This document shows positions 9,402 through 63,447 of a stretch of DNA of 64,000 bases, in pieces. The notes below the pieces were generated by a model. The model was not told the origin of the DNA. It was given only the letters and a program-made list of their open reading frames with translations, and ran no database searches. The position numbers and the translations under genes are program-made. Position 1 is the stretch's first letter, and every line of letters begins with the position of its first letter. The stretch is taken from assembly GCF_015493435.1 (NCBI RefSeq), contig NZ_WGDD01000001.1:1-64000 (forward strand). Direction: 5' to 3'. This stretch comes from Sulfurovum sp. GTDB taxonomy: Bacteria; Campylobacterota; Campylobacteria; Campylobacterales; Sulfurovaceae.

Positions 9402-9504
9402 ATTTTACTCTTTTTTCATTACAGGAGGGTTAGCGCCAGGATGGGTAGAAAGTGCAAATCCGAAGATCGTTATTGCTGTGATGGTTCAGGAAAGAAAAGA
9501 GAGA

Positions 9505-9530
9505 GCCATCTGAAGCAGTCTTCAGATGGC
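9505..9530 (-). terminator. Rho-independent terminator of the lipoprotein gene
   Basis: Perfect 11-bp inverted repeat GCCATCTGAAG/CTTCAGATGGC with a 4-nt loop, just past the stop of the minus-strand lipoprotein gene. On the minus strand it is followed by TCTCTCTTTTCTTT. Confidence 0.8.
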
Positions 9531-9541
9531 TTGAGAGAAAA

Positions 9542-10060
9542 TTACAGGCCGCTGAGCATCTTCTTGACCGCGTATTCCAAACGTTTCTTCTGCTGGTCAA
9601 GGGGCAGGCCTTTAAATTCGCCTTCCGCTGTAGATAACCAGATAATGGAACCGGTATCGGCATCAACAAGCATCAGAACCATTGCAGCAGCCGGTACATT
9701 CTCGATCATAGAACGTCCCTTCTTATCCAGTTTGATCTGCATGGCATTCATATCTGCACCTGCCACATAAGCAACAAAAAAGTCAGGGTTTTTCTTGACT
9801 TCTATTTTGCCTTTTTTCTGCAATTCTGTATTAATCAGTGCTTTGATATCGGCGTCTACATTTGCATTTTTCAGTGTTTTGTCTTTTTTCAATGTGTCAT
9901 CGACACCGCTCTCTTTAATGATCTCATAGGTTTTATACCCTTTAAGATTCGCTTTTGCCGACTTGACCGTCTCCACTTCGATATCTTTTGTCGATACACC
10001 GCATCCTGCAAGTCCTGCGATCATTAATGCGACGACCGCTCCTTTAATCCATTTTGACAT
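9542..10060 (-). CDS. Putative lipoprotein (DUF4136-like)
   Basis: 172 aa. N-terminal signal with lipobox LAGC (Cys20), so probably anchored in a cell-envelope membrane. The remainder (NPDFFVAYVAGADMN, LVDADTGSIIWLSTAEG) resembles small DUF4136-type lipoproteins that have no assigned function; the resemblance is judged by eye. AAGGAA precedes the ATG, a TATAAT-like box lies in the AT-rich gap upstream, and a strong terminator follows, so it appears monocistronic. Confidence 0.75.
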   Translation of the reverse strand: MSKWIKGAVVALMIAGLAGCGVSTKDIEVETVKSAKANLKGYKTYEIIKESGVDDTLKKDKTLKNANVDADIKALINTELQKKGKIEVKKNPDFFVAYVAGADMNAMQIKLDKKGRSMIENVPAAAMVLMLVDADTGSIIWLSTAEGEFKGLPLDQQKKRLEYAVKKMLSGL

Positions 10061-10137
10061 TCTGTTCCTTTTTATTGAATTATATCATTATACTCGATAA
10101 AACTAAAGCAGATATGCTTTTATATCTTATTGCACTG

Positions 10138-10716
10138 TCACTGTCGTTTTTTACGTGTATATTTTTTGTTCGTACTGTAAATACGCCGGAGGTCCGGCCG
10201 GGCAAAGCGCATATAGCGGTGCCGTGTAATAAGAACCGGCATTCCCACTCCTGCCCAGTTGTAGAGAAGGGGAATATCTTTTTTGTCCACATGAATGCAG
10301 CCATGCGACGTAAAGTCGATATTGCCTTCATGGAGTGCATGTCCCCACCGGGTGAAAAAAAGGCTGTAATCCATATTGTTGCTGCCGTCGGGTTCAGGAT
10401 ATTTTGATGAAGTATGGTACCTTTTCTTCTTCAGTATGCTCCATTTCCCCGAAGGGGTATACCCCATCTCTTCCCCCGATGAAATGCCGGCACTCAGCCA
10501 GACGGTACCGTCGCGGTCCACAGCGTAAAATCTGCCGTCACTGTTCTCTTCCCTGACCGACACGAGAATAAAGTCTTTGCCTGTCAGGTCAATGTCATGT
10601 TCATTGCCGTTCCTGTCGATAGAAACAAATTCGGTTTTGGAAACAGGAATAAGCTCTCTATCCTGTGCATTCACAGTAATACAGATAAAAAGCAGAGCAA
10701 ACACTATACGCTTCAT
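10138..10716 (-). CDS. L,D-transpeptidase (YkuD family), exported
   Basis: 192 aa with a signal peptide (about residues 1-18, cleavage near VNA-QD). The YkuD catalytic motif is present: H126/H129 upstream and SHGCIHV with nucleophile Cys140. The family forms 3-3 cross-links or attaches proteins to peptidoglycan in the periplasm; some Campylobacterota members act as cell-shape factors, but that is not deducible here. The C-terminus is very basic (NKKYTRKKRQ). It stands alone between the lipoprotein and acnB. Confidence 0.85.
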   Translation of the reverse strand: MKRIVFALLFICITVNAQDRELIPVSKTEFVSIDRNGNEHDIDLTGKDFILVSVREENSDGRFYAVDRDGTVWLSAGISSGEEMGYTPSGKWSILKKKRYHTSSKYPEPDGSNNMDYSLFFTRWGHALHEGNIDFTSHGCIHVDKKDIPLLYNWAGVGMPVLITRHRYMRFARPDLRRIYSTNKKYTRKKRQ

Positions 10717-10815
10717 AAAATGACCCTATAAAAATTGATTTAAATTGATTATAGCATAAAAGGAGAGATACTTCCATCCCCTCAAGGGGAAGAAGTATAA
10801 AAAAAGAGGCGATTT

Positions 10816-13386
10816 CTACTCAACCATCGCTTCAAGATCTTTTTTGGAAACTTTGTTGAAATTCAGGTACCTGTAGACATCATCCGTCATTTCAGGTTTG
10901 ATCTTCTTGGGGACCAGCTCCATATACTCTTCAGCTGTAGGCAGTTCGCCTTTGAGTGCAACAACGGCTGCCAGCTCTGCCGAACCGAGATAGACCTGAG
11001 AGTCTTTGCCCAGTCTGTTGTCAAAGTTTCTTGTAGAGGTCGAGAAAACATACGCACCCTTGGCCACCTGTGCCTGGTTACCCATACAGAGTGAACATCC
11101 GGGGATCTCTGTTCTCGCACCTGCCGTACCGAAGACAGAGTAGTACCCTTCTTCGATCAGTGTGTGTTCATCCATCTTTGTCGGAGGACATACCCACAGT
11201 TTCGTAGGCACGGGACCTTCCCCTCTGAGCACTTCACCCAGCGCTCTGAAAAGACCGATGTTCGTCATACATGAACCGACAAATACTTCATCGATCTTTG
11301 TTCTGAGGCCCTGCTCATGGATCTCTGTCAATGTCTTGACATCATCCGGATCGTTAGGACATGCCAAAATAGGTTCTTTGATCTCATTCATGTCGATCTC
11401 GATGACCGCTGCATACTGGGCATCCGGATCCGCTTCAAGCAGTTCAGGGTTTGCGATCCATTCTTTCATTTTGTCTGCACGTCTCTGAAGTGTATTTTTA
11501 TCTTCATATCCCTGAGCGATCAACTCTTCGATAAGCACGATGTTCGACTTGAGATACTCGATGATAGGTTCTTTGTTCAATTTGACCGTACATGCCGCTG
11601 CCGAACGCTCTGCCGATGCATCTGAAAGCTCGAATGCCTGCTCGCACTTTAAATCTTCAAGGCCCTCGATCTCAAGAACACGGCCTGCAAAGATATTTTT
11701 CTTCCCTTTTTTTTCTACGGTAAGAAGACCGTCTTTGATCGCCTGGTAAGGAATAGCATTTACCATGTCTCTCAGTGTGATACCCGGCTGCATTTCACCT
11801 TTGAATCGTACGAGAACAGATTCCGGCATCGTAAGAGGCATCATCCCCGTTACCGCCGCGAATGCTACAAGCCCTGACCCCGCGGGGAACGAGATACCGA
11901 TAGGGAATCTTGTGTGGCTGTCCCCGCCTGTACCGACTGTGTCGGGAAGACACATTCGGTTCAGCCATGAGTGGATAACCCCGTCACCCGGTCTAAGGAT
12001 GAAACCTTTTCTCTCTGTCCAGAATTTGGGTAGTGTATGCTGCAAATTGATATCGGCAGGCTTTGGATACGCCGCTGTATGACAGAAGGACTGAAGTACG
12101 AAGTCCGCCCCGAAGCTCAGTGCCGCAAGTTCTTTGATCTCGTCTCTCGTCATGGGCCCCGTTGTATCTTGGGAACCGACTGTCGTTGCAATAGGCTCGC
12201 AGTAGGTACCCGGCTTTACACCTTCCATACCGCAGGCTTTGCCTACCATTTTCTGTGCAAGGGTAAATCCTTTTCCGTCATCTTCGGGCTGTGTCGGTGT
12301 CATGAAAATATGACCTGCATCCATACCGAGCGCTTCTCTCGCTTTGGCAGTTAACCCTTTGCCGATGATCAACGGAATACGACCGCCCGCTCTCATTTCG
12401 TCAGGAAGCGTGTTCGGCTCGAGCGTGAACTCGGATACCACTTTTCCGTCTTTCTCGATCACACCTTCAAAAGGCTTTACAGTGATCACATCACCTGTCT
12501 CAAGCTCAGCGACCGGTGCCTGGATAGGAAGACATCCCGAATCTTCCGCAGTGTTGAAAAAGATCGGAGCGATAATATCGCCGATAACCACACCGCCGGT
12601 TCTCTTGTTCGGTACACCGGGGATGTCTCTACCCATATGCCACTGCACGGAATTGATCCCGGATTTTCTTGAAGAACCGGTACCGACGACATCACCGACA
12701 TAGGCAAGAGGATGTCCTTTTTTCTTCAGCTCTGCCATGGTCTCCAACGGATTTTCCATTCTCGCCTGAAGAAAAGAGTTCGCATGCAGAGGAATATCCG
12801 CTCGCGTAAAGGCTTCAGAAGCAGGAGAAAGGTCATCGGTATTCGTCTCACCGGGAATCTTATAGACAGTAAGCGTGATCTCTTTTTCCAGCTCCGGCTT
12901 GTTCGTGAACCACTCGGCATTCGCCCATGACTCTACCACCTGCTTTGCGTATTCGTTGCCTTCCTCCATCAGTGTTTTGACCGTTTCGAAGTCTCCGTAA
13001 ACCAAAATCGTATTTTTCAGCTGGTCTGCCGCTTCCTGTGCAATGGCAACATCCTGGTTTCTCAAAGCATCGATCAGCGGTCCGATATTGTAACCGCCCA
13101 GCATAGCACCAAGAAGCTCTACTGCTTCGAACTTGGTGATGGCATCGCTTTTTGCATCACCCTGAACGATCGCATTCAGGAAAGCCGCTTTTACATACGC
13201 TGCATCATCCACACCCGCGGGTACCTTGTTCTTCAAGAGGTCCAACAGGTATTCTTTTTCTACGATCGGGTTCGCTTTAAGCAATTCCACAAGTTCCGCT
13301 GTCTGCTCAGCAGTCAATGCCAAAGGCGGGACACCAAGCTTTGCACGCTCAGCGGTATGTGCTTTGTATTCTTCAATTAAGGCCAT
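10816..13386 (-). CDS. acnB: Bifunctional aconitate hydratase 2 / 2-methylisocitrate dehydratase
   Basis: AcnB-type aconitase interconverting citrate and isocitrate in the (reductive) TCA cycle; 856 aa from ATG 13386, near the E. coli AcnB length. The ORF track extends 26 codons further, but [14 protein letters not shown] is the usual N-terminus and AGGAG lies 6 bp before this ATG. Visible: N-terminal HEAT-like domain, swivel domain ([19 protein letters not shown]), and C-terminal domain with 4Fe-4S ligands in GSCMTNIG and CSLCMGNQ. No terminator hairpin of note was seen downstream. Confidence 0.96.
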
Positions 13387-52501: not shown

Positions 52502-53591
52502 TTAAGACCTCATTATAGATTTCGACAAGTTTTTGTACCACAGCTTTTGAAGAGTAATTTTCTCTCACATGTGCATTCAATTTCGATGCCATGCTCTCTC
52601 TATATTTTTCATCTTCTATGAGCTTCAACATACTTTCTGCCAATGCTTCACTGTCCTTTGCCGGTACGACTTCACCATGCACCCCATGCCCAAGCACCTC
52701 TGCACACTGGCCCACCTCTGTACAGACGACAGGCAGTTTTGCCAGGCCATACTCAAGCAGTGCCACAGGCAATCCTTCAGACTCTGAAGATAGTATTCCC
52801 ATGCCCGAAGCCAACAAAATATCTGCCGAATCACTTCTGGTACCCAGAATATGCACATTGTCCTGCAAATGGTTTGCTTTGATGAATGCCTTGATCTTTT
52901 GGCTGTAGGCATCGTTTTTGTCCTCTCCGACAAGCAGGAGATGATATTCTCGATGCGTTTCATGTACTTGCTCAAATGCCTTTAACAAATTTATATGGTC
53001 TTTCTGCCAGCGTAAATTAGCCAGGCATACTATACGCGTATTTTTTGTTCCGGGAAGTGACACAAAAGAATTTTTTTCCTCCAGTTGTGCAAAATTTTGT
53101 ACATAGATAATTTTTTTTTCATGCAAATATAAATTATTTTTACTCCATTGTACAAGTTTTTCATTCACTGAAATAACGGCATCAAAAAAATGGGAAAATT
53201 GTATGATGATTCTATTTTGTTTTGGATCTACTTCATAACGGATACCGTTATGGTCATGCCAGATAATCTTGACACCGGTAAACGGCTTGCAAAGCACCGC
53301 AGTAAAAAAAGAGGAGGAGTGTGCGTGGATCACATTGATTTTATGCTTTTTTATAAATTTTATCAACTTTCCAAGGGCTTTCATATCCAATGCTGAATGT
53401 TTATGTAAAATCATATATCCCACGTTATCGGAAAGAAAAGATTCCAGTGCACCACCCTGACGTGTTGCGCACAGGTAACTGGGAACGTCTGCTTCTTTCA
53501 GTGCATTTGCCAGATTGACACTGACACGTTCTGCACCACCGGCAGCCAGTGAGTCTATCAACTGCAATACCCTCGGCTCTTTAATTCCCAT
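52494..53591 (-). CDS. Glycosyltransferase family 4
   Basis: 365 aa from ATG 53591, which overlaps the stop of the previous gene; the track's upstream start lies in that gene. LIDSLAAGGAERVSVNLANAL (nucleotide-loop region), HAHSSSFFTAVL, IVCLANLRWQKDHINLL, and SEGLPVALLEYGLAKLPVVCTEVG with EX7E-like residues. Confidence 0.9.
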   Translation of the reverse strand: MGIKEPRVLQLIDSLAAGGAERVSVNLANALKEADVPSYLCATRQGGALESFLSDNVGYMILHKHSALDMKALGKLIKFIKKHKINVIHAHSSSFFTAVLCKPFTGVKIIWHDHNGIRYEVDPKQNRIIIQFSHFFDAVISVNEKLVQWSKNNLYLHEKKIIYVQNFAQLEEKNSFVSLPGTKNTRIVCLANLRWQKDHINLLKAFEQVHETHREYHLLLVGEDKNDAYSQKIKAFIKANHLQDNVHILGTRSDSADILLASGMGILSSESEGLPVALLEYGLAKLPVVCTEVGQCAEVLGHGVHGEVVPAKDSEALAESMLKLIEDEKYRESMASKLNAHVRENYSSKAVVQKLVEIYNEVLNA

Positions 53592-54780
53592 ATAGTAGCT
53601 TCCCAATCTCTTCTTCAAACTTTTCCAGCGTAAACTGCCGTGACCATGTCATAGCCTCTTCACTGCTTTGCCTGAATGCATCTGCATTTTCAAGATAATA
53701 TTTTACCTTGTTTACAATGTCATCCACATTGGGCATAACGATCTTCCCTCGAGATCCGTTGCCTATCATGTAATTGACACAGGAAACATCTGTCGTAATG
53801 GGCAGACACCCCCAAAACATCGCCTCTGCCACCACCTTCGGCCAGCCTTCAGACTTGGAGACAAAGATGAGAAAATGTGCATTTTGGTAGTAGCGTTTAA
53901 CAGTATCGGCATCTTGGTTGCCGTGAAGCACCACAAAATCTTCCAGCCCGTTCTCCTTGATGTACGACTCAAGCTTTGGACGTTCCACACCTTCACCAAA
54001 CAGATCTAAATGTACTTCATACCCTTCCTTGTGCAGACGTTCTGCAGTTTGAATGCTGAGCAATGGACGTTTCCCTGGGCTTAGGGCACCTACGTACAGT
54101 AAGTTGGAAGTTGGAAGTTGGAAGTTGGAAGTTGGAAGTTGGAGGTTGGAGGTTGGAGGTTGGAGGTTGGAAGTTTGAGGTTGGAAGTTGGAAGCTCTTT
54201 CTTGAAACTTGAAACTTGAAACTTCCTCCTCACTATACGTAGCTGTAAAAAACGGGACAATGTTACTACTCTGTTCCGGCCATTCACCATATACCAGTAC
54301 TTTCATATTACGGGTCAGAAACGTGTTGGAGAGTATCTTCTTTTGTAAACGGTAGCTCCATGGCTGTGGACTGTCAGGGTCCCAGTTGCCGGCATATTTG
54401 GCTGTTTTTGGTTTATGAGGGAAAAAGATCTGTGCCACACTGCCCAGTAAGCCCATATTGCCCGGACAGCGGAGGTGTATGTGGTCTGCCCAGACCATGC
54501 CACGTACGATCTGCACAAAAACGACAGGGAGTTTAAAAAGTGTTTTTACAGCCTCTTTTTTAGAAGTGAGGTGAAAAGCCGGAACTTCGGAAAATGTCAG
54601 TTTTTCATGTTTGTAAGGAAGGTCTATCAGATCGGCAGTGCCATTCTGTATGGGGGCGACCACTTTTACTTCATCGACATGTTTTAACCAAAGGTTCATC
54701 TCTTTAATATAGGGGCCATACCCATATATCTGATCACCTGTTTTTTTATGTTGGACGTGTGTGACTATGAGAAACTTCAT
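53581..54780 (-). CDS. Glycosyltransferase with in-frame heptanucleotide-repeat insert
   Basis: 399 aa GT-B enzyme. N-domain to about residue 185; then a repeat-encoded stretch (about 190-225: TSNLQPP-TSNLQLP-TSNFQLP-TSN) derived from 7-bp DNA repeats; then the C-domain beginning LLYVGALSPGKRPLLSI, with VSKSEGWPKVVAEAMFWGCLPI. The insert is at the linker before the catalytic C-domain, where it may be tolerated. A one-unit change in repeat number would shift the frame. Confidence 0.85.
   Translation of the reverse strand: MKFLIVTHVQHKKTGDQIYGYGPYIKEMNLWLKHVDEVKVVAPIQNGTADLIDLPYKHEKLTFSEVPAFHLTSKKEAVKTLFKLPVVFVQIVRGMVWADHIHLRCPGNMGLLGSVAQIFFPHKPKTAKYAGNWDPDSPQPWSYRLQKKILSNTFLTRNMKVLVYGEWPEQSSNIVPFFTATYSEEEVSSFKFQERASNFQPQTSNLQPPTSNLQLPTSNFQLPTSNLLYVGALSPGKRPLLSIQTAERLHKEGYEVHLDLFGEGVERPKLESYIKENGLEDFVVLHGNQDADTVKRYYQNAHFLIFVSKSEGWPKVVAEAMFWGCLPITTDVSCVNYMIGNGSRGKIVMPNVDDIVNKVKYYLENADAFRQSSEEAMTWSRQFTLEKFEEEIGKLLYGN
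54104..54222. repeat. Heptanucleotide array (17 units) inside a glycosyltransferase gene
   Basis: Thirteen TTGGAAG/TTGGAGG-type heptamers (54104-54194), one CTCTTTC, and three TTGAAAC. Same unit family as at 59736-59784 and 60159-60207, but here no four-helix-bundle gene is associated. Confidence 0.92.
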
Positions 54781-55916
54781 AACAATGACCTGTAAAAATC
54801 GATATTCTGTTCGACAATACGCTCCAGATTAAAACGGGTCAGAACATCTTCCCGCGCATTCTCTCCCATCACCTGTGCCATTTCAGGATCGTCGAACATG
54901 GCGATGATCTTTCCGGCAATATTATTCGGATCGAGCGGATGGCAAAGCAGTCCCGTCTTCTGGTCTATTACTGCTTCAGGTCCGGGTCCGAGTTTGCTTG
55001 CAACCACCCCTTTGCCCATACCGAGTGCTTCCAGCCAGGCAATAGGCATCGCCTCCATATGCGAAGGGTACACACACACCTCCGCCTGCTCCAGCTTTTT
55101 TGGTATATCATGATGCGGCAGCGGTCCGACGATCTTCACGGCTTTTTCAATGTCTGGTGTAATGAATGTTTTCAGGTATGCAGTATAGGATTCTCCTGTT
55201 TGGGGATCTTTCCAGTCCCTACCGACAATGTCAAGTGTGGCATCCGGGTAAGCCTCAAGGATCTTCGGCATTGCTTCTACCAGTTGGCGTACCCCTTTTT
55301 TCTCAACTACCGTACCGACAAAAAGGATCTTCCTTGCGATCACCTTGTCATCCGATGCGGCATAAAACTTTCCGGTATCGACGATATTGTAGATCGTTTC
55401 AAAAGGTTGTGAAAAGTGCAGCAGTGATTTCGTAGTCTTGCCCACAAAATCACTGACAGCGATCAGCCCGTCAGCTTTTGCAAACGACTGCTTCTCCTGA
55501 AAAGAACGCCAGAATGCAGTTTTTTTACCCAATGTCACCGCGAAGAAATGATGCCCGCCATGCATACGTATCACTTTTTTGGCAGGAAAATTATTTGGAA
55601 TGAACGCAAAAGAAAGCTCTGCACCTTCAATGATGTCTATGGGTGTTTCATCATGTATCTGGTAAAGTTTTTTTACCAAACGTTTAGAATTTGGTATAAA
55701 GTTGCCCGCCGGCCATCTGGCACCGGGAAGCCGCCATACGTGTACCCCCTCGTCATTTTCATACATCTCACGCTCGATCCCGTTGTAGGCACCAACAACC
55801 GATACCCGTATGCCCTTATTGCACAACGCACGTCCTATGGTCTGTACAACTGACCCTATGCCTCCCTGCGTTTTTCCGGTCATAGGGTATTCATGGGTTA
55901 TAAAAGAGATGTGCAT
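54777..55916 (-). CDS. Glycosyltransferase family 4
   Basis: 379 aa. EYPMTGKTQGGIGSVVQTIGRAL, RMHGGHHFFAV, ILFVGTVVEKKGVRQLVEAM, and PSHMEAMPIAWLEALGMGKGVVAS (EX7E). AGAAGGA six bases before the ATG. Stop overlaps the next gene's ATG. Confidence 0.92.
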   Translation of the reverse strand: MHISFITHEYPMTGKTQGGIGSVVQTIGRALCNKGIRVSVVGAYNGIEREMYENDEGVHVWRLPGARWPAGNFIPNSKRLVKKLYQIHDETPIDIIEGAELSFAFIPNNFPAKKVIRMHGGHHFFAVTLGKKTAFWRSFQEKQSFAKADGLIAVSDFVGKTTKSLLHFSQPFETIYNIVDTGKFYAASDDKVIARKILFVGTVVEKKGVRQLVEAMPKILEAYPDATLDIVGRDWKDPQTGESYTAYLKTFITPDIEKAVKIVGPLPHHDIPKKLEQAEVCVYPSHMEAMPIAWLEALGMGKGVVASKLGPGPEAVIDQKTGLLCHPLDPNNIAGKIIAMFDDPEMAQVMGENAREDVLTRFNLERIVEQNIDFYRSLL

Positions 55917-55919
55917 ATT

Positions 55920-57308
55920 TTATCCTTCTGTTAAAAATGCTGCAATACGTTTTGAAACATTTTGTTGAGATTCGGTAATGATATTCAGCCATTTCTTTCT
56001 GTCAACTGCAACTTCATCGGGATGTTCAAGTACACGCAGTACCTTTTCAGCCATTTCTTCTTTACTGTTGATCCATACTACGGCATCCAGGCCTTCCATA
56101 CTTTTAAAGTGTTGGAACCTGTAAATCGTCTCTACCGACCACGCTTCAGAATCTGTCTGGTCATACTTGATATAACATGCCGGTTTGTCAAACATCGCAA
56201 AGTCGTGTGCCATGGTTGACCCGACATTATAAACCGTATCGCAATGAAAGGCGATATTGACCAGTAATGCAACATCCTCAAATGATGGGTAAAAAAGGTT
56301 CCAATTTTCACCCTCATCACGGTTCCACAAAGGATCGGACACTTTAATGACATCCTTATAACGCTTCAACACTTCATCATACCGATTTGAAAAGTCAGCA
56401 GGGCACCGACGAAAAAGTATTTGGGGTCTTTTGCTTTTTTCCATCTGTTCTACCGCTTCTGCAAGGTCTGCCAAATACTCAGGATCGTAAGGAGAGGTAC
56501 GTGTATCATCACCGGAAAAACATATTATTTTTCTCTTAGGATCAAGATCATATTTTTGGCAAAATAGTTCTTTGTCCCAGTAAAGTGATTTGTCATGGTA
56601 AAAATCAAATTGAGGTGTTCCGGTAACAACTATGGAAGCTTCCTCTATTTCAGGATAATACATTTGCATCTCATTTTTCATATACTCTGACCATACACAA
56701 TAACCATCCGTCCGTGTAGCCAGCCGGGCTTTGGGAAGGTTGTCCCATGAGTAGATCGCGGTGATTGTCTTTATACCTGACATCTGCGCTGTGAGAACAG
56801 CAGGTACGGCAATGATGGAACGCTGATGCGTGTTGAACACCACATCCGGATTATGACGTTTTAAAAAATCACTAAACGGCTGCAGATAGGCTGATTTTTT
56901 CACACGATTGTCATACATGCCTTCCATCTTTAAAATAGCTTTATCACTGTTAAAAGCAGAACCTGTTATTTCCACTGCTTTATAAAACAGTTTAAGCCTG
57001 AAATTTCTAATGGAAGGTGCCCAGTTCGTCATCAGAGTCTGATTTTTCACTATATGAGTGTTATGCCGCAAACGGGCATAGCTGATACTCTCACGTAAGA
57101 ACTTTTCAGACATACTCTCTTTATAGGGCGGTAACGGCTCACTATCCAATCTTATGTCATGTAAAGATTCAACCTCGCCTAAAGCACTTTCACTCAACGC
57201 ATGCCACACAACGATTTCATGCCCTTTATCTGTCAAATCTTTTAAAATGTTCGAATACAGATAATTGCGTATTCCCACACCATCGGGTACCAAAAACAGT
57301 ATTTTCAC
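55920..57308 (-). CDS. Surface-carbohydrate biosynthesis protein, GT-B-like
   Basis: 462 aa from GTG 57308 (VKILFLVPDGVGIRNYLYSNIL), which overlaps the asparagine synthase stop (GTGA) and has GGGGG upstream; the track's 16-codon extension is discarded. NPDVVFNTHQRS, VTGTPQFDFYHDKS and VYNVGSTMAHDFAMFDKPACYIKY suggest a GT-B/CDP-glycerol-transferase-like fold; precise donor unknown. Confidence 0.7.
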   Translation of the reverse strand: MKILFLVPDGVGIRNYLYSNILKDLTDKGHEIVVWHALSESALGEVESLHDIRLDSEPLPPYKESMSEKFLRESISYARLRHNTHIVKNQTLMTNWAPSIRNFRLKLFYKAVEITGSAFNSDKAILKMEGMYDNRVKKSAYLQPFSDFLKRHNPDVVFNTHQRSIIAVPAVLTAQMSGIKTITAIYSWDNLPKARLATRTDGYCVWSEYMKNEMQMYYPEIEEASIVVTGTPQFDFYHDKSLYWDKELFCQKYDLDPKRKIICFSGDDTRTSPYDPEYLADLAEAVEQMEKSKRPQILFRRCPADFSNRYDEVLKRYKDVIKVSDPLWNRDEGENWNLFYPSFEDVALLVNIAFHCDTVYNVGSTMAHDFAMFDKPACYIKYDQTDSEAWSVETIYRFQHFKSMEGLDAVVWINSKEEMAEKVLRVLEHPDEVAVDRKKWLNIITESQQNVSKRIAAFLTEG

Positions 57309-59023
57309 TTGATCCCCCTGCTTTCTATCATCAGTCCGACACTCACCCACTGCCAAATATAAAAAGCGTTATCCTGTGCACCGTTTTTGTAGGCAAGCCA
57401 CTCTTTTTGCATTTCATCTACCTTAAACCATCGTCTCAGTTCTGAAGATGCGATCTGCTCTATCTGTTCATCTACAAAACTTGTCAACTCATTACCTAAC
57501 CATTCACGCTGAGGTGTCTGTACCGGACGTTTGGGAGCGAAAACGATCTCTTTACTCAAATGCTTTTGTGCAATCTGCCGGAGCATCCACTTTTTTTGCC
57601 CTGCACGTATCTTGTACTCCTGTGGCTGCGCAAAGGCAAGCTCAACCAGACGGTAGTCAAGAAAAGGTTCACGCAGTTCAACCGACGATGCCATGGAAAC
57701 ACGGTCATTAAAACGCAAAGCCCGTGGGATTTTAGTATAAAAAAGATCTCGGTACTGCATATTCTGCAAGGCATTATCAAAGGGTTTGGGATAAGGATGT
57801 TTTTGCGCTGCCTGGGCAAAGTCTGTCCGCAAAACATTGGTACGGGTGGGAGATGTCTTGACACCCTGTACAAGGCTGTCACCCTGTGCCGTATAGTAAT
57901 CATACCCTGCCCACTGCTCATCCATGCCCTGTCCGTCAAGCAGCACCAGTGTCCCGTCAGCTCTTGCCTGTTTAAAAAGCGTGTAGTAAGCGATTGTAGG
58001 GATGCCCCCATAGGGTTCATACTGCACTTCAAACAGCTCCTGGGCAAGTGCGGGTACACCTGCAGCGGTAAGAAGCACTTTTTGCAGCGGGTTGCCTGTA
58101 CGCTCAAGCATCATCTCTACCCATTTGTCCTCATCGTAGCGTTCGTCACCTGTGTAGAAGGTATATGCCTTGATGTTGTCATTGCCCGGATGGGTTTTGT
58201 GTACCATGGCAAGCAGGGTCGAGCTGTCCAACCCCCCGCTGAGATTGAACCCTACTGTTACATCGGCACGGAAACGCAATTTGACACTCTCTTCAAGCAG
58301 CGTTTCATACGATGCCTGCACCGCTTCGAGTGTAGTTTCGGTATGAAGTTGCCCGATGCGTGATGCAAAATCGTACCACCGTCTTATCTTCACACTGCCG
58401 TCATACACCATCGAGCATCCTGCCTCAAGCTGCCGTACCCCTTCCCAAAAACTCTCTTCAGGTCTGCCGTAGGTACCGTAGGCAAGATAGGATGCCCACA
58501 CTCTCTCTTTGGGACGAAGCGGTATGCCGGCAGCTTCAAACGCCTTGATCTCGCTGGCAACATAGAGACTCCCTTCATACTCCATATAGTAGAATGGCTT
58601 TACCCCAAAACGATCCCTTGCACAAAAGAGGTTTCCCTGCTGCCGGTCGTAAATGACAAACGCAAACATACCGTTAAGCCGTTCAAGCATCGCTTCTCCC
58701 CAAACAGTATAGGCTGTAAGGAGTACCTCCGTGTCGGACACGGTACGAAATGCATAGTGGTAAGCCAATGTCTGTCTTAGTTCAAGATAGTTGTATATCT
58801 CACCGTTAAAGACGATCACATAGCGTCCCTGACCATCTTCCATGGGCTGGTTCGCTTCAGTAGAGAGGTCAATGATAGAGAGCCTGTTATGTCCCAGTGC
58901 CACCCCCTCTTTTGGCATCAGCTTTCCGGTATGGTCAGGGCCTCTGTGCTGTTGGGCATGGAGCATTGCATCGAGTGTACGCTCTTTCGCTGCCTTTCCG
59001 ACAATGCCGACTATACCGCACAT
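57305..59023 (-). CDS. asnB: Asparagine synthase (glutamine-hydrolysing)-like protein
   Basis: 572 aa. Class II amidotransferase domain with Cys2 nucleophile (MCGIVGIVGK), HRGPDHTG, and NGEIYNY; ATP-pyrophosphatase synthetase domain with FNLSGGLDSSTLLAM. Within a sialic-acid glycan operon such paralogues may amidate a sugar carboxyl instead of aspartate; this is inference from location. Starts one base after neuA ends. Confidence 0.86.
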   Translation of the reverse strand: MCGIVGIVGKAAKERTLDAMLHAQQHRGPDHTGKLMPKEGVALGHNRLSIIDLSTEANQPMEDGQGRYVIVFNGEIYNYLELRQTLAYHYAFRTVSDTEVLLTAYTVWGEAMLERLNGMFAFVIYDRQQGNLFCARDRFGVKPFYYMEYEGSLYVASEIKAFEAAGIPLRPKERVWASYLAYGTYGRPEESFWEGVRQLEAGCSMVYDGSVKIRRWYDFASRIGQLHTETTLEAVQASYETLLEESVKLRFRADVTVGFNLSGGLDSSTLLAMVHKTHPGNDNIKAYTFYTGDERYDEDKWVEMMLERTGNPLQKVLLTAAGVPALAQELFEVQYEPYGGIPTIAYYTLFKQARADGTLVLLDGQGMDEQWAGYDYYTAQGDSLVQGVKTSPTRTNVLRTDFAQAAQKHPYPKPFDNALQNMQYRDLFYTKIPRALRFNDRVSMASSVELREPFLDYRLVELAFAQPQEYKIRAGQKKWMLRQIAQKHLSKEIVFAPKRPVQTPQREWLGNELTSFVDEQIEQIASSELRRWFKVDEMQKEWLAYKNGAQDNAFYIWQWVSVGLMIESRGIK

Positions 59024-59794
59024 TTACGACTCTTCCTTTCCATTGAGGGATACATAAAAGGACTCTGCCTTTTCCCAATCCTCCATCGTATCGATATTGA
59101 TTAGCTCCGGACTCTCGATGGGGAAAGCCACAATATCGTCTCCAAGCAGTGAGCCTTTGTTGCGTATGGTCTCTACGGAAGTGATGTAGATGGCACCGTC
59201 ACGGTGGTAGGCAGGCGGAAGTTCCTGACGGCGGGGGATGATCTTTTTCTCTCCGGTACTGATTTTGAGACGGTTATTCTTTTCTATTTCAAAGGTCCAG
59301 TGAGGGTTAAACTCATCGGGCACCTTCCTCACCGATACCAGTGCATCGGGGCGTTCCTGAACAAACATGCGTATGGCATCGTCTATGACCCCTTGTGGAC
59401 GGTAAGGACTTGTCACCTGAAGCAGACAGACCGCATCGTACACTTCACCCTGTGATTCCATAAAATCCAAAGCATGCTGCACGACTTCAAGGCTTCCCGA
59501 ATGATCTTGCGCCAGTGCTTCCGGTCGCATGAAGGGTACTTCAAGTCCATAGTTGCGTGCCACTTCCGCTATCTTCTCATCATCGGTTGAGAGAATGGTT
59601 TTTTCAAGTAATAAAGCATCATTTGCCTGTTCAATGGTATAGGCGATCAGCGGCTTTCCTGCCAGTGGCTTGATGTTTTTGCCTGGCACACCTTTGGAAC
59701 CACCCCTTGCCGGAATTAATCCGAGGATTTTTAAGTTAGAAGTTGGAAGTTTCAAGTTGGAAGTTTCAAGTTTCAGGTTGGAAGTTTGTTTCAT
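59024..59794 (-). CDS. neuA: CMP-N-acetylneuraminate (or related nonulosonate) cytidylyltransferase with repeat-derived N-terminus
   Basis: 256 aa. The canonical protein begins at about residue 21: KILGLIPARGGSKGVPGKNIKPL; STDDEKIAEVA and LLQVTSPYRP are in place. The first 20 residues (KQTSNLKLE-TSNLKLP-TSNL) are encoded by 7-bp repeats, and the ATG overlaps the four-helix-bundle stop (ATGA). So initiation has been taken over by the inserted element. Makes CMP-sialic/legionaminic-type sugar for transfer. Confidence 0.88.
   Translation of the reverse strand: MKQTSNLKLETSNLKLPTSNLKILGLIPARGGSKGVPGKNIKPLAGKPLIAYTIEQANDALLLEKTILSTDDEKIAEVARNYGLEVPFMRPEALAQDHSGSLEVVQHALDFMESQGEVYDAVCLLQVTSPYRPQGVIDDAIRMFVQERPDALVSVRKVPDEFNPHWTFEIEKNNRLKISTGEKKIIPRRQELPPAYHRDGAIYITSVETIRNKGSLLGDDIVAFPIESPELINIDTMEDWEKAESFYVSLNGKEES
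59736..59784. repeat. Heptanucleotide array flanking four-helix-bundle gene (neuA side)
   Basis: Seven consecutive 7-mers: TTAGAAG, TTGGAAG, TTTCAAG, TTGGAAG, TTTCAAG, TTTCAGG, TTGGAAG. Lies wholly within the neuA N-terminal coding extension. Confidence 0.92.
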
Positions 59795-60147
59795 TGGATA
59801 CCTTTTTTTATGGAACTTATTAGAGCATTAAGCATTTTTTCAATTTCAAAAATTTTATCCAAGAGTATTTCATCATTGGCAATATAACCAATACGCTCCG
59901 AAATTTCCAATTGTGTTTGTAGTTCATAAAGAGAACCTAAGGCAATATGCAAAAACTGAACAAACTCTTTTTTAGAATTTCTTCCAGCCCCCTCAGCAAT
60001 ATTGGAAGGAATAGATACACCACATCTACGAATTTGATCCGACAAAGCATACATTTCATTTTTAGGAAAATCTTCCAGTTTTTTATAAACCAAAACAACA
60101 AGATCCATAGCTCTCTGCCAAACAATCAACTCTTTAAACTTCGCCAT
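59791..60147 (-). CDS. Four-helix-bundle protein (S23/23S rRNA-intervening-sequence family)
   Basis: 118 aa from ATG 60147 (GGAGG four bases upstream; the GTG at 60150 is too close). FKELIVWQRAMDLVVLVYKKLEDFPKNEMYALSDQIRRCGVSIPSNIAEGAGR is the hallmark of the four-helix-bundle family found in 23S rRNA intervening sequences and related to Avd of diversity-generating retroelements. No reverse transcriptase is present. Bracketed by heptanucleotide arrays; inserted between neuC and neuA. Confidence 0.9.
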   Translation of the reverse strand: MAKFKELIVWQRAMDLVVLVYKKLEDFPKNEMYALSDQIRRCGVSIPSNIAEGAGRNSKKEFVQFLHIALGSLYELQTQLEISERIGYIANDEILLDKIFEIEKMLNALISSIKKGIQ

Positions 60148-60158
60148 CACCCCTCCTC

Positions 60159-60207
60159 AACTTCAAACTTCAAACTTCAAACTTCAAACTTCCAACTTCC
60201 AACTTCC
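60159..60207. repeat. Heptanucleotide array flanking four-helix-bundle gene (neuC side)
   Basis: Seven units on the plus strand: four AACTTCA and three AACTTCC, i.e. TGAAGTT/GGAAGTT on the coding strand. Begins three bases after the neuC stop codon. Confidence 0.92.
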
Positions 60208-60210
60208 CCA

Positions 60211-61371
60211 CTAATAAGTAATCGTTTTATGAAAACGAAGTGGTATGGTTGCCAAAGTTTCTGCGATTTTAACGCCAGCCATACCGTCTCCATAAATATA
60301 TTCCGATTCGTAGTGACCATGTTCAACATGCTTTTCAATAGCCTGCTCGATCTCTTTTTGATCGTAACCGCAGTCAATCACGTTTTTCCCGCGTTTTCGA
60401 CCATGTTGGCGTGTACCGATATTTACAACAGGAATCCCCAAGTAGGAACTTTCGCGTATGCCTACGCTTGAATTGCCGACCAATACTTTTGCATTTTTTA
60501 TCAAGCGTAGAAAATCTTCAGGTTCCATGTTTTTGAAAAAGCGGATATTTTTGGGGTTTTTCAATTCTCTGAAAGTACGGATCGCATTAGAAGTACCGTC
60601 AGCTCCGGCATCTACATTGGGCCAGAACCAGAAGGTAGGCATATTCAGTACATCAACCGCTTTGAGTGTTTCAAGCACATGTTCTTTGGATGCCTCATAT
60701 TCTGTGGTAACGGGATGCTGCATTACTACAAGGTATCCTTCTTTCTCCCAGTCGTCTATGTCTCCCACACCACCATATTTTTCTACAGGGTCAAAACCGA
60801 GTTTCTGGTTTTCCAGCACTTCTTTTGCCAAATCTATCGAGGGACAGCCCGTATTGATAACATAGGCAGGGTCTTCTCCCATTTTGATGACACGTTCACG
60901 GGCATCCCGGGAAGCGACCAGGTGGATATCTGCCAGTTTTGTATTGGCATGGCGGACTTTTTCGTCTATGTTCCCTGTCACTTCTCCCCCCTGTATGTGT
61001 GCCAGAGGAATATTTTGATAAGAAGCGGCAATGGAAGTGGCAATTGTTTCGAAACGGTCGGCAATACTGACGACAACATCGGGTTGAAGATTGTAAAAAA
61101 CATTAGACAGCTCCATCAGTGCCAAACCGGTAGTCTTGGCCATTGCTGTTGGCGTTTCACCCTCCAAAACATTGTAGACCTTTTCGGTTATTTCGAAACC
61201 ATCTTCTTCTATGACATTTACAGCATTGCCGTATCTGTCTAACAATGCAGAACCTGCGACAACAAGTTGAAGTTCCAAATCAGGATGTTCATTAATAGCG
61301 GTTAAAGCTGTTTTTACCCGTGCATAGCTTGGCCTTGCTGTGATTACCACACAAATTTTTCGTTTATTCAT
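60211..61371 (-). CDS. neuC: UDP-N-acetylglucosamine 2-epimerase, hydrolysing (NeuC/LegG type)
   Basis: 386 aa. RPSYARVKTALTAI, DRFETIATSIAASYQNIPLAHIQGGEVTGNIDEKVRHA and VGNSSVGIRESSYLGIPVVNIG are typical. Releases ManNAc-type sugar for NeuB. Start overlaps the neuB end by 8 bp. Confidence 0.92.
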   Translation of the reverse strand: MNKRKICVVITARPSYARVKTALTAINEHPDLELQLVVAGSALLDRYGNAVNVIEEDGFEITEKVYNVLEGETPTAMAKTTGLALMELSNVFYNLQPDVVVSIADRFETIATSIAASYQNIPLAHIQGGEVTGNIDEKVRHANTKLADIHLVASRDARERVIKMGEDPAYVINTGCPSIDLAKEVLENQKLGFDPVEKYGGVGDIDDWEKEGYLVVMQHPVTTEYEASKEHVLETLKAVDVLNMPTFWFWPNVDAGADGTSNAIRTFRELKNPKNIRFFKNMEPEDFLRLIKNAKVLVGNSSVGIRESSYLGIPVVNIGTRQHGRKRGKNVIDCGYDQKEIEQAIEKHVEHGHYESEYIYGDGMAGVKIAETLATIPLRFHKTITY

Positions 61372-62371
61372 CGATGTCTTCCTTTGTGAGAAACTCCCAA
61401 GTCGTTTTATCTGTTTTTAGTGTTTTGCCTATTGCTTGTTGCCATGCAGAAGCATCGATGCCGAACCCTTTCGGTTTTTTGGCTTCAAGATCATCAAATG
61501 TCAACACATGCCCGGCTTCAAGGTTTTTGTTAACTGCAAGACTCTTTTCAAAGATGCTTTTGAGTGTACTAAATCGGCTGTTGTCCTGTTTGTCGACTGG
61601 ATGGGAGAGAGCAGTCTCTATGTCTCGTACCCCTTCGACAAGACGGGCAATCTCGTCTATGGTCAGAGATGCTTTGGCATCGGGACCGAACATCCGTTTG
61701 TCGAACACGGCATGAAACTCCAGTATCTCCGCTCCGAGTGACACTGCTGCCAAACAGGCGAAAATATCACCTGAGTGGTCGGAAAATCCTACGGGCACCC
61801 CATAGCGTGTCTTTAATGCATCGATAACATTCAACCCCCACTCTTCGGGTTTGGTCGGGTAGGCTGTCGTACACTGAAGTACGGAAACATCGATGCCCTT
61901 CTCTTTGAGAAACTGCACACTGATGTCAAGCTCTTCAAATGAGCTCATCCCCGATGAGAGAATGACCGGCTTTCCTGTTCGGGCTATCTTTTCAAGCAGC
62001 AGCAGGTTCGTTACCTCCCCGCTGCCTATTTTGTAGGCAGATACCCCTGCTTCTTCAAGAAGGTCTACTGCCGCATTGGAAAAGGGAGAAGAGATAAAAG
62101 CAACACCCACCTCATCACAATGGGCTTTGATGCCTTTCCACTGCTCCAGTGTGAACTCCATCCGTTTCCAGTAGTCGTACCGTGTGGCATCTTCATACGA
62201 AAACTTCACACGGAACGGTTCATGCTCACTGCTCTCTGCATGGGCAATGTGTGTCTGGAACTTGACAGCATCTACTCCGGTCTGTGCCAGGGCATCGATG
62301 TAGGAGTGCAAAATACCCAAACTTCCTTCGTGGGCTTGTGCTATTTCTGCTATAATGTACGTTTTTTCCAT
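61364..62371 (-). CDS. neuB: N-acetylneuraminate synthase (NeuB family)
   Basis: 335 aa. PEP-dependent aldol condensation forming a nonulosonic acid. IAEIAQAHEGSLG, DAVKFQTHIA, YKIGSGEVTNLLLLEKIARTGKPVILSSGM, GFSDHSGD and a C-terminal SAF-like antifreeze domain (NKNLEAGHVLTFDDLEAKKPKGFGI). NeuB/C/A without LegB/C or PseB/C in view favours sialic acid, not proven. Confidence 0.93.
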   Translation of the reverse strand: MEKTYIIAEIAQAHEGSLGILHSYIDALAQTGVDAVKFQTHIAHAESSEHEPFRVKFSYEDATRYDYWKRMEFTLEQWKGIKAHCDEVGVAFISSPFSNAAVDLLEEAGVSAYKIGSGEVTNLLLLEKIARTGKPVILSSGMSSFEELDISVQFLKEKGIDVSVLQCTTAYPTKPEEWGLNVIDALKTRYGVPVGFSDHSGDIFACLAAVSLGAEILEFHAVFDKRMFGPDAKASLTIDEIARLVEGVRDIETALSHPVDKQDNSRFSTLKSIFEKSLAVNKNLEAGHVLTFDDLEAKKPKGFGIDASAWQQAIGKTLKTDKTTWEFLTKEDIDE

Positions 62372-63447
62372 TTTTCAACCAATTTTTCAATATTTTTACA
62401 CCATTCTTCTAAATCATATATTTTATCTGGTATATTTTTTCTATATGTATTTATTCTACTATTATTTTCATATTTCTTAAGTTCATCAGAAATCGCTTTT
62501 ACCCAATTTTGTGGCATATTTGGAAAATCTACCAACCGACCAAAAGAACCAGTTCCCATAATTTCCGCAACTGGGTCGATATTGGAGGCTATACATACAT
62601 TTCCGCATTTTAATGCTTCAGTCAAGGACATCGGGTGCCCTTCATGGCATAAAGTTGAAAAAAGATATATGTCTGAAGCTTGATAATAAGAAGCTAACTG
62701 ATCATTAGGGATTCTTCCCAACCATCTTATCTGTTTACCATGGATTTCATTATGGGTTCCGATTATCAAAAGTTCTATATTAGGGAGGTCCTGTATAAGT
62801 TTTTCCCAGGCTTTAAGAATAATATGCAATCCTTTTTTAGAACGATCTTGAGAGAGCCAAAGCAAATATATCTTATTTTCGGATAATCCCAATGTCTGAC
62901 GCAATATTGTTTTATCAGAAGCTGAAACGTGTTGAAATTTTATTGAGTCCACCCCATTATATATATGTGTAACTTCACAAGGAAGTGCATGTGTCTGAGT
63001 AAGCTGAAAATGATAGGAAGCTCTTGTCAATACAATTAAGTCATCTATCATTCCATAAAAATTTTCAAGTTCATTAGGTGGCATAAAATAATGATACCCA
63101 TGAATAAAAAATAATATTTTAATGCGACTTCTTACACCTTCTTTTCTAGCATAATAATCAACGGTTTTCAAAAGTCCAGGATTGTCAATGATCATAACAA
63201 TCAGTTCTTTTTCAGAGGAGAGTATCTTCTTGAGTGCATTCCAGTAGACTTTAAAACGATAAAACTTGATAAAAGCTTCCATTTTATATCTCAAAATTTT
63301 TGGTTCTTCTACAAGGTAATGTTTTGACTGAACAATAGTTTTATCTAAATTTTTTTTAGGACAAATAACATAGTCGATATTTGAATTTTCTTTTTTTAAC
63401 AGATATGAAAATCTTGTAGTCCAACTTGCAATACCACTATATGGCAA
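62350..63447 (-). CDS. Glycosyltransferase family 4, start region frameshifted
   Basis: 365 aa in the track from TTG 63447. The natural start is probably ATG 63479, which overlaps the flippase stop (ATGA) and has AAGGA five bases upstream, but the following run of six A puts it one base out of frame; seven A would give MKKTVIVSHFALPYSGIASW. Body is intact: LPCEVTHIYNGVDSIKF, YLLWLSQDRSKKGLHIILKAW, FSTLCHEGHPMSLTEALKCGNVCIAS (EX7E). Overlaps neuB by 22 bp. Confidence 0.82.
   Translation of the reverse strand: MPYSGIASWTTRFSYLLKKENSNIDYVICPKKNLDKTIVQSKHYLVEEPKILRYKMEAFIKFYRFKVYWNALKKILSSEKELIVMIIDNPGLLKTVDYYARKEGVRSRIKILFFIHGYHYFMPPNELENFYGMIDDLIVLTRASYHFQLTQTHALPCEVTHIYNGVDSIKFQHVSASDKTILRQTLGLSENKIYLLWLSQDRSKKGLHIILKAWEKLIQDLPNIELLIIGTHNEIHGKQIRWLGRIPNDQLASYYQASDIYLFSTLCHEGHPMSLTEALKCGNVCIASNIDPVAEIMGTGSFGRLVDFPNMPQNWVKAISDELKKYENNSRINTYRKNIPDKIYDLEEWCKNIEKLVEKWKKRTL

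Follow-up and report, generated by a model that had tools for sequence, protein, structure and literature searches.

The start codon of neuA in Sulfurovum sp., together with the codons for MKQ and the repeat codons that follow (residues 1–21), arrived with an inserted element. The insertion lies in a window, the whole stretch of DNA that was analyzed, of 64,000 nucleotides. We consider it probable that the element resembles the intervening sequences (IVS) of 23S rRNA, that its downstream arm now serves as the start of neuA, and that neuA is translated by reinitiation at an ATGA overlap and is normally ON, with no contingency switch involved. Such an S23/IVS-like element would consist of two inverted arrays of the same heptamer and, in the loop that they enclose, a PF05635 gene; its entry between neuC and neuA removed the native neuA ATG, as the empty site shows, and the downstream arm is now read as the neuA start. 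Translation of neuA would begin at the ATG that overlaps the stop codon of the element gene, by termination and reinitiation. The situation in relatives suggests that the array serves as a structural arm, fixed and held in frame by selection. The element is most likely mobile, largely selfish and related to the 23S rRNA intervening sequences. Its arms may form a hairpin, either in RNA or in single-stranded DNA, the hairpin being the feature that would be conserved.

The insertion between neuC and neuA

On the minus strand, the gene order is neuB (sialic acid synthase, the first gene of the neuBCA block; 61,364–62,371; PF03102, E = 1.9e-72), neuC (UDP-GlcNAc 2-epimerase, the upstream neighbor; 60,211–61,371; PF02350, E = 9e-72), a four-helix-bundle gene, and neuA (59,024–59,794; PF02348, E = 7.6e-25), which encodes a CMP-sialic acid synthetase of 256 aa, counting the N-terminus derived from the element. 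Genus and family searches, the latter covering 175 family genomes, turned up a close neuA in G049, a genome of the same genus, and in no other; the NeuA core encoded in the window is 94% identical at the amino acid level to the NeuA of G049. There, 14 bp separate the neuC stop codon TAA from ATG-AAA-ATA, and no PF05635 match was found in that genome. A blastn comparison with the G049 contig aligned window positions 59,054–59,731 with 9460–10137 and 60,212–62,364 with 10156–12308; the gap between the two blocks is 18 bp in G049 versus 480 bp in the window. The insert (59,732–60,211, minus strand) thus measures about 480 bp against about 18 bp at the empty site, the native neuA ATG included. Since the codon preceding AAA in the window is TTA, the native ATG is missing. 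It follows from the empty site and the lost ATG that the neuA start, MKQ and the repeat codons came with the element, and the original prediction that an insert had supplied the start codon and first codons of neuA is borne out by the G049 site. The mark of a mobile element, a site that is filled in one genome and empty in a related one, was found both between neuC and neuA and at tilS.

A neuBCA block with a close neuA is present in 2 of the 175 family genomes, the source genome and G049, and this rarity suggests that the block was acquired horizontally.

The neuA ATG (59,794–59,792, minus strand) and the TGA of the PF05635 open reading frame (59,793–59,791) share the sequence ATGA (59,791–59,794, minus strand), which confirms the overlap that had been predicted. 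The NeuA N-terminus reads MKQ-TSNLKLE-TSNLKLP-TSNL-KILGLIPARGG. Its repeat is encoded by the downstream arm (59,729–59,787, minus strand; TRF and translation), in which seven complete 7-bp units and a partial one correspond in frame to residues 4–20. Residues 2–20 had been assigned to the repeat; they are indeed largely repeat-coded, but the range is 4–20, and MKQ is the tail of the element. The array is imperfect (units AACTTCC, AACCTGA, AACTTGA and AACTTCT, the eighth unit being partial) and, with about 8 units and 54–59 bp, it exceeds the usual 4–5 units and median of 32 bp in relatives. It is also far above chance, as its pattern matches only two places in the 2.16-Mb genome, which pattern searches identified as the neuA element and an array at 54,101–54,224.

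Ahead of the PARGGSKG motif, a single in-frame ATG, GTG or TTG follows the neuA ATG, namely the TTG at codon 14, within the array; the next in-frame candidate is the GTG at codon 36, past the motif. With these as the only alternatives, translation of neuA must begin within the array or ahead of it, and this codon scan rules out a start downstream of it. The stop and start codons thus overlap with no independent downstream start site, as in a translationally coupled pair. This layout implies coupling, and translation of neuA is likely coupled to that of the PF05635 gene.

The four-helix-bundle gene (59,791–60,147, minus strand, ATG at 60,147) belongs to the S23 or 23S rRNA intervening-sequence protein family (PF05635, E = 2.6e-39; 134 bits versus a cut-off of 33.8) and is the sole PF05635 gene of the genome. 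The Shine-Dalgarno-like GAGGAGGG lies just 5' of its ATG. Structures of the protein family are available (2gsc, 2rld), and the PF05635 protein is not known to have a catalytic role. On its other side lies the upstream arm (60,159–60,206, minus strand; TRF), which comprises about 7 units of GGAAGTT or TGAAGTT and is inverted relative to the downstream arm. The interval first described, 59,724–59,794, had captured the downstream array correctly and left out this inverted partner. The two arms match each other with a score of 35 in inverted versus 11 in direct orientation, and they pair end to end in the predicted RNA fold (z = -5.7). Between them we found the PF05635 gene alone and no transposase. 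An Rfam scan of 53,000–62,500 gave no match, and promoter and terminator scans of 59,000–62,700 were uninformative, with counts near those of shuffled sequence.

A related four-helix-bundle family is bAvd (PF22296), an accessory of diversity-generating retroelements, to which the gene gave a weak match (E = 8.5e-6). Membership was rejected at 26.7 bits, below the curated cut-off of 40, and we treat the match as a weak lead only. Neither a reverse transcriptase nor a template repeat came to notice here.

Related copies in the genus and at tilS

The survey comprised 61 same-genus genomes, in which 69 copies were read together with their flanks. PF05635 matches occurred in 31 of the 61 genomes, with a maximum of 11 in one genome. 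Period-7 arrays scoring above 11 were found upstream of 47 and downstream of 52 of the 69 copies, and in 6.2% of 725 nearby control windows located at least 500 bp from a four-helix-bundle gene; periods other than 7 were seen in 0–3 copies each, except for 14, a harmonic. The arms of one copy matched each other in inverted orientation with a mean score of 19.4, versus 8.0 for permuted pairs (the highest of 1000 being 10.3) and 4.5 in direct orientation. The heptamer itself varies by copy (AACTTCC, CTACTTC, CTCACTG, TCTCATT, AGTGATA and others). The downstream gene was codirectional with the element in 65 of 65 copies and the upstream gene in 57. The four-helix-bundle gene is under purifying selection, with dN/dS values of 0.03–0.16. 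In a tree, the copies cluster by insertion site with some jumps: a copy at tpiA (L084, genome G014) falls inside the clade of tilS-site copies, and G014 also carries a tilS-site copy (L078), so that L084 is likely the product of a within-genome move. Taken together, the empty sites and the tree point to movement of the element. Among 80 named loci from many phyla, period 7 scored above 11 in 44 and period 8 in 19, with 1–3 for the other periods tested.

The share of control windows with period-7 arrays, about 6%, is itself far above that of other periods, and many lone arrays occur in the genus.

These copies also bear on the reading that the neuA array is an assembly artefact or a fortuitous repeat with no element behind it. 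A single genome carrying a tandem repeat, a type of sequence that is error-prone in assemblies, would leave room for it, but dozens of genomes that were assembled independently show the same architecture, among them G015 and G023, each a single contig, and the empty site is clean. The empty site and the multi-genome evidence have already refuted this reading, and we give it almost no weight.

Of 68 same-genus copies, 33 have an ATG overlapping or adjoining the element stop from which the reading frame runs through the array into the next gene, and two further copies use TTG as the start. The host genes, named by the resemblance of their N-termini, include tilS, murI, an rlmB-like methyltransferase gene, fcl, cysN and cysC. 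The 29 tilS orthologs comprise 11 filled sites, 15 empty sites and 3 with an array only. The 15 element-free orthologs start 13–14 codons ahead of the NLLAFSAG motif, and the 11 element-bearing orthologs start 15–18 codons ahead of it with array-coded N-termini. At the remaining three loci (L192, L193, L218), the array-coded N-terminus has been kept and the four-helix-bundle gene is broken or absent; these are scars of the element. We conclude that neuA is one more case of the takeover event seen at tilS.

The 11 best-preserved tilS arrays (L191, L194, L201, L203, L204, L207, L209, L213, L216, L218, L219) measure 30–33 bp across four heptamer sequences, and three lower-scoring ones measure 18–26 bp. 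As array length stays constant while the heptamer differs between species, in comparisons that used one genome per species, the tilS arrays suggest whole-arm replacement or correction rather than slippage.

We also considered whether the downstream arm is kept stop-free as a design for read-through. In all frames, 35 of 53 downstream arms versus 2 of 53 upstream arms were free of stops. However, fused and unfused copies did not differ (19 of 28 and 16 of 25, respectively), and the bias vanished in the named loci of other phyla (7 of 40 and 5 of 40). The idea was therefore rejected, there being no evidence of function.

The array as a proposed phase switch

It had been proposed that the array acts as an on/off switch of neuA, and hence of sialylation. 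In such a contingency locus, slippage of 7-bp units would change the unit number, shift the neuA frame and toggle sialylation in the population. The arithmetic of the proposal is sound: 7 is not a multiple of 3, and a change of one unit is a frameshift. Simple repeats are known from phase-variable genes of sialylation and glycan synthesis, and neuA resembles these in being a surface-glycan gene with a repeat in its 5' coding region whose unit is not a multiple of three. The array lies between the neuA start and the protein core, and at 54–59 bp against the median of 32 it may slip more than those of relatives. In Coxiella, moreover, the heptamer count of the IVS is 2 or 3 depending on the strain (PMC4990558).

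Nevertheless, a switch of this kind appears improbable to us. No OFF frame was found in 67 same-genus copies with a recognizable downstream gene; one further copy (L044) was left out of the frame count as it had no recognizable downstream gene, and a few copies misplaced by the automatic frame pick were placed correctly by direct reading of the N-terminus. The same layout is carried by tilS and murI, unlike what is known of phase-variable glycan genes. Both are regarded as essential and could therefore not live with frequent OFF states. The constant length of the tilS arrays across different heptamers likewise speaks against slippage, and two Calothrix plasmid copies (L179, L180) differ at 89 of 3608 positions (2.5%) with no indel. 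Furthermore, the imperfections of the neuA array should make slippage less frequent, and the TTG at codon 14 would stay in frame after a change 5' of it. On these grounds the switch claim is not supported, and the case is a warning against taking such arrays for phase-variation switches. Rare or slow loss of a unit in the neuA array is possible: in the wider family, unit numbers do change slowly, given that the Coxiella IVS varies by one heptamer (PMC4990558). A literature search for a repeat-switched neuA found no close precedent.

The two Calothrix copies reside on two plasmids of one strain, Calothrix brevissima NIES-22, where the S23p element lies between an integrase-family gene and hypothetical genes. 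Plasmid pairs from Trichormus and Riemerella were also tried as a test of array stability and were set aside; their DNA is identical and carries no information.

Relation to known systems and to regulation

Intervening sequences with an S23p gene are known from the 23S rRNA of Coxiella, Leptospira and Brucella (PMC4990558). As in these, the neuA element, at an overall size of about 430–480 nt, has a PF05635-type gene in the loop of a stem formed by terminal inverted repeats, and as in the Coxiella IVS, tandem heptamers lie just upstream of the S23p start (PMC4990558). Unlike an IVS, it is located not in 23S rRNA but in a protein-coding operon, between neuC and neuA; both its arms are heptamer arrays, and the downstream arm is translated as the N-terminus of the host protein. 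In addition, the four-helix-bundle gene is under purifying selection, whereas the S23p gene of Coxiella is reported to be decaying (PMC4990558). Excision by RNase III, as in an IVS, would remove the neuA start codon.

Two sets of heptamer repeats are also similar. The TAACTGA repeats of Beggiatoaceae, Cyanobacteria and Bacteroidetes form 7-bp arrays near start codons and sometimes inside the termini of open reading frames; in contrast to the present arrays, they repeat a single heptamer in direct orientation, and no four-helix-bundle gene is described with them (PMC4679880), whereas in the same-genus copies a pair of inverted arrays encloses one gene and the heptamer is copy-specific. The GGGAATC repeats of Xanthomonas and Nostoc are heptamer arrays of mostly four units, some of them inverted, for which a role in phase variation was judged unlikely; unlike the neuA element they form a G-quadruplex, and no link to S23p was made (PMC4692102). 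S23/IVS elements, heptamer repeats and structures of the protein family are each known separately, and a search that covered few subscription papers found none that joins them. In that search, no published link between PF05635 and heptamer arrays was found beyond the Coxiella IVS paper. The neuA element unites S23/IVS rRNA elements, bacterial heptamer repeats and odd repetitive N-termini into one element, which enters operons between genes and captures the next start codon, even where the gene is regarded as essential. Experiments on it could address how a tiny element that has no recognizable transposase spreads and how both of its arms keep one repeat.

The element might instead have been retained for regulation: its four-helix-bundle protein, or a helper, would bind the paired mRNA arms and control translation of the downstream gene. 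We regard this as rather unlikely. It would fit the uniform codirectionality with the downstream gene (65 of 65), the fact that the protein is under strong purifying selection, and the position of the arms, which lie beside both start regions and which the fold prediction pairs end to end. In Beggiatoaceae, TAACTGA heptamers close to start codons have been proposed as sites for a translational regulator (PMC4679880). On the other hand, the host genes are functionally unrelated (tilS, murI, ispG, uvrB, fcl, cysN and neuA), many orthologs have no element, and array-coded N-termini outlast the loss or breakage of the four-helix-bundle gene at L192, L193 and L218. A mobile, largely selfish element remains the preferred reading.

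A broader and more speculative proposal, which we put forward with considerable doubt, is that PF05635 genes mark a family of IVS-like elements that reside in mRNA and span several phyla; their two arms would be written or corrected together, and host genes would repeatedly gain starts and N-termini from them. Arms that at one site stay fixed at about 4.5 units and remain complementary while the heptamer is replaced between species would mean a templating or arm-copying mechanism. If this were true, such copying would involve the four-helix-bundle protein, a distant relative of bAvd.

The second genomic match to the heptamer pattern is a bare inverted array (54,101–54,224, minus strand; TRF and pattern search) with both arms and no four-helix-bundle gene. 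No ortholog of the glycosyltransferase that carries it, and hence no empty site, was found at E ≤ 1e-40 in the 175 family genomes. The array lies in frame inside this gene (53,581–54,780), just ahead of its second domain and 5.5 kb from the neuA element. It is likely a local copy of the arms of the neuA element, and possibly a gene-less derivative of the element.
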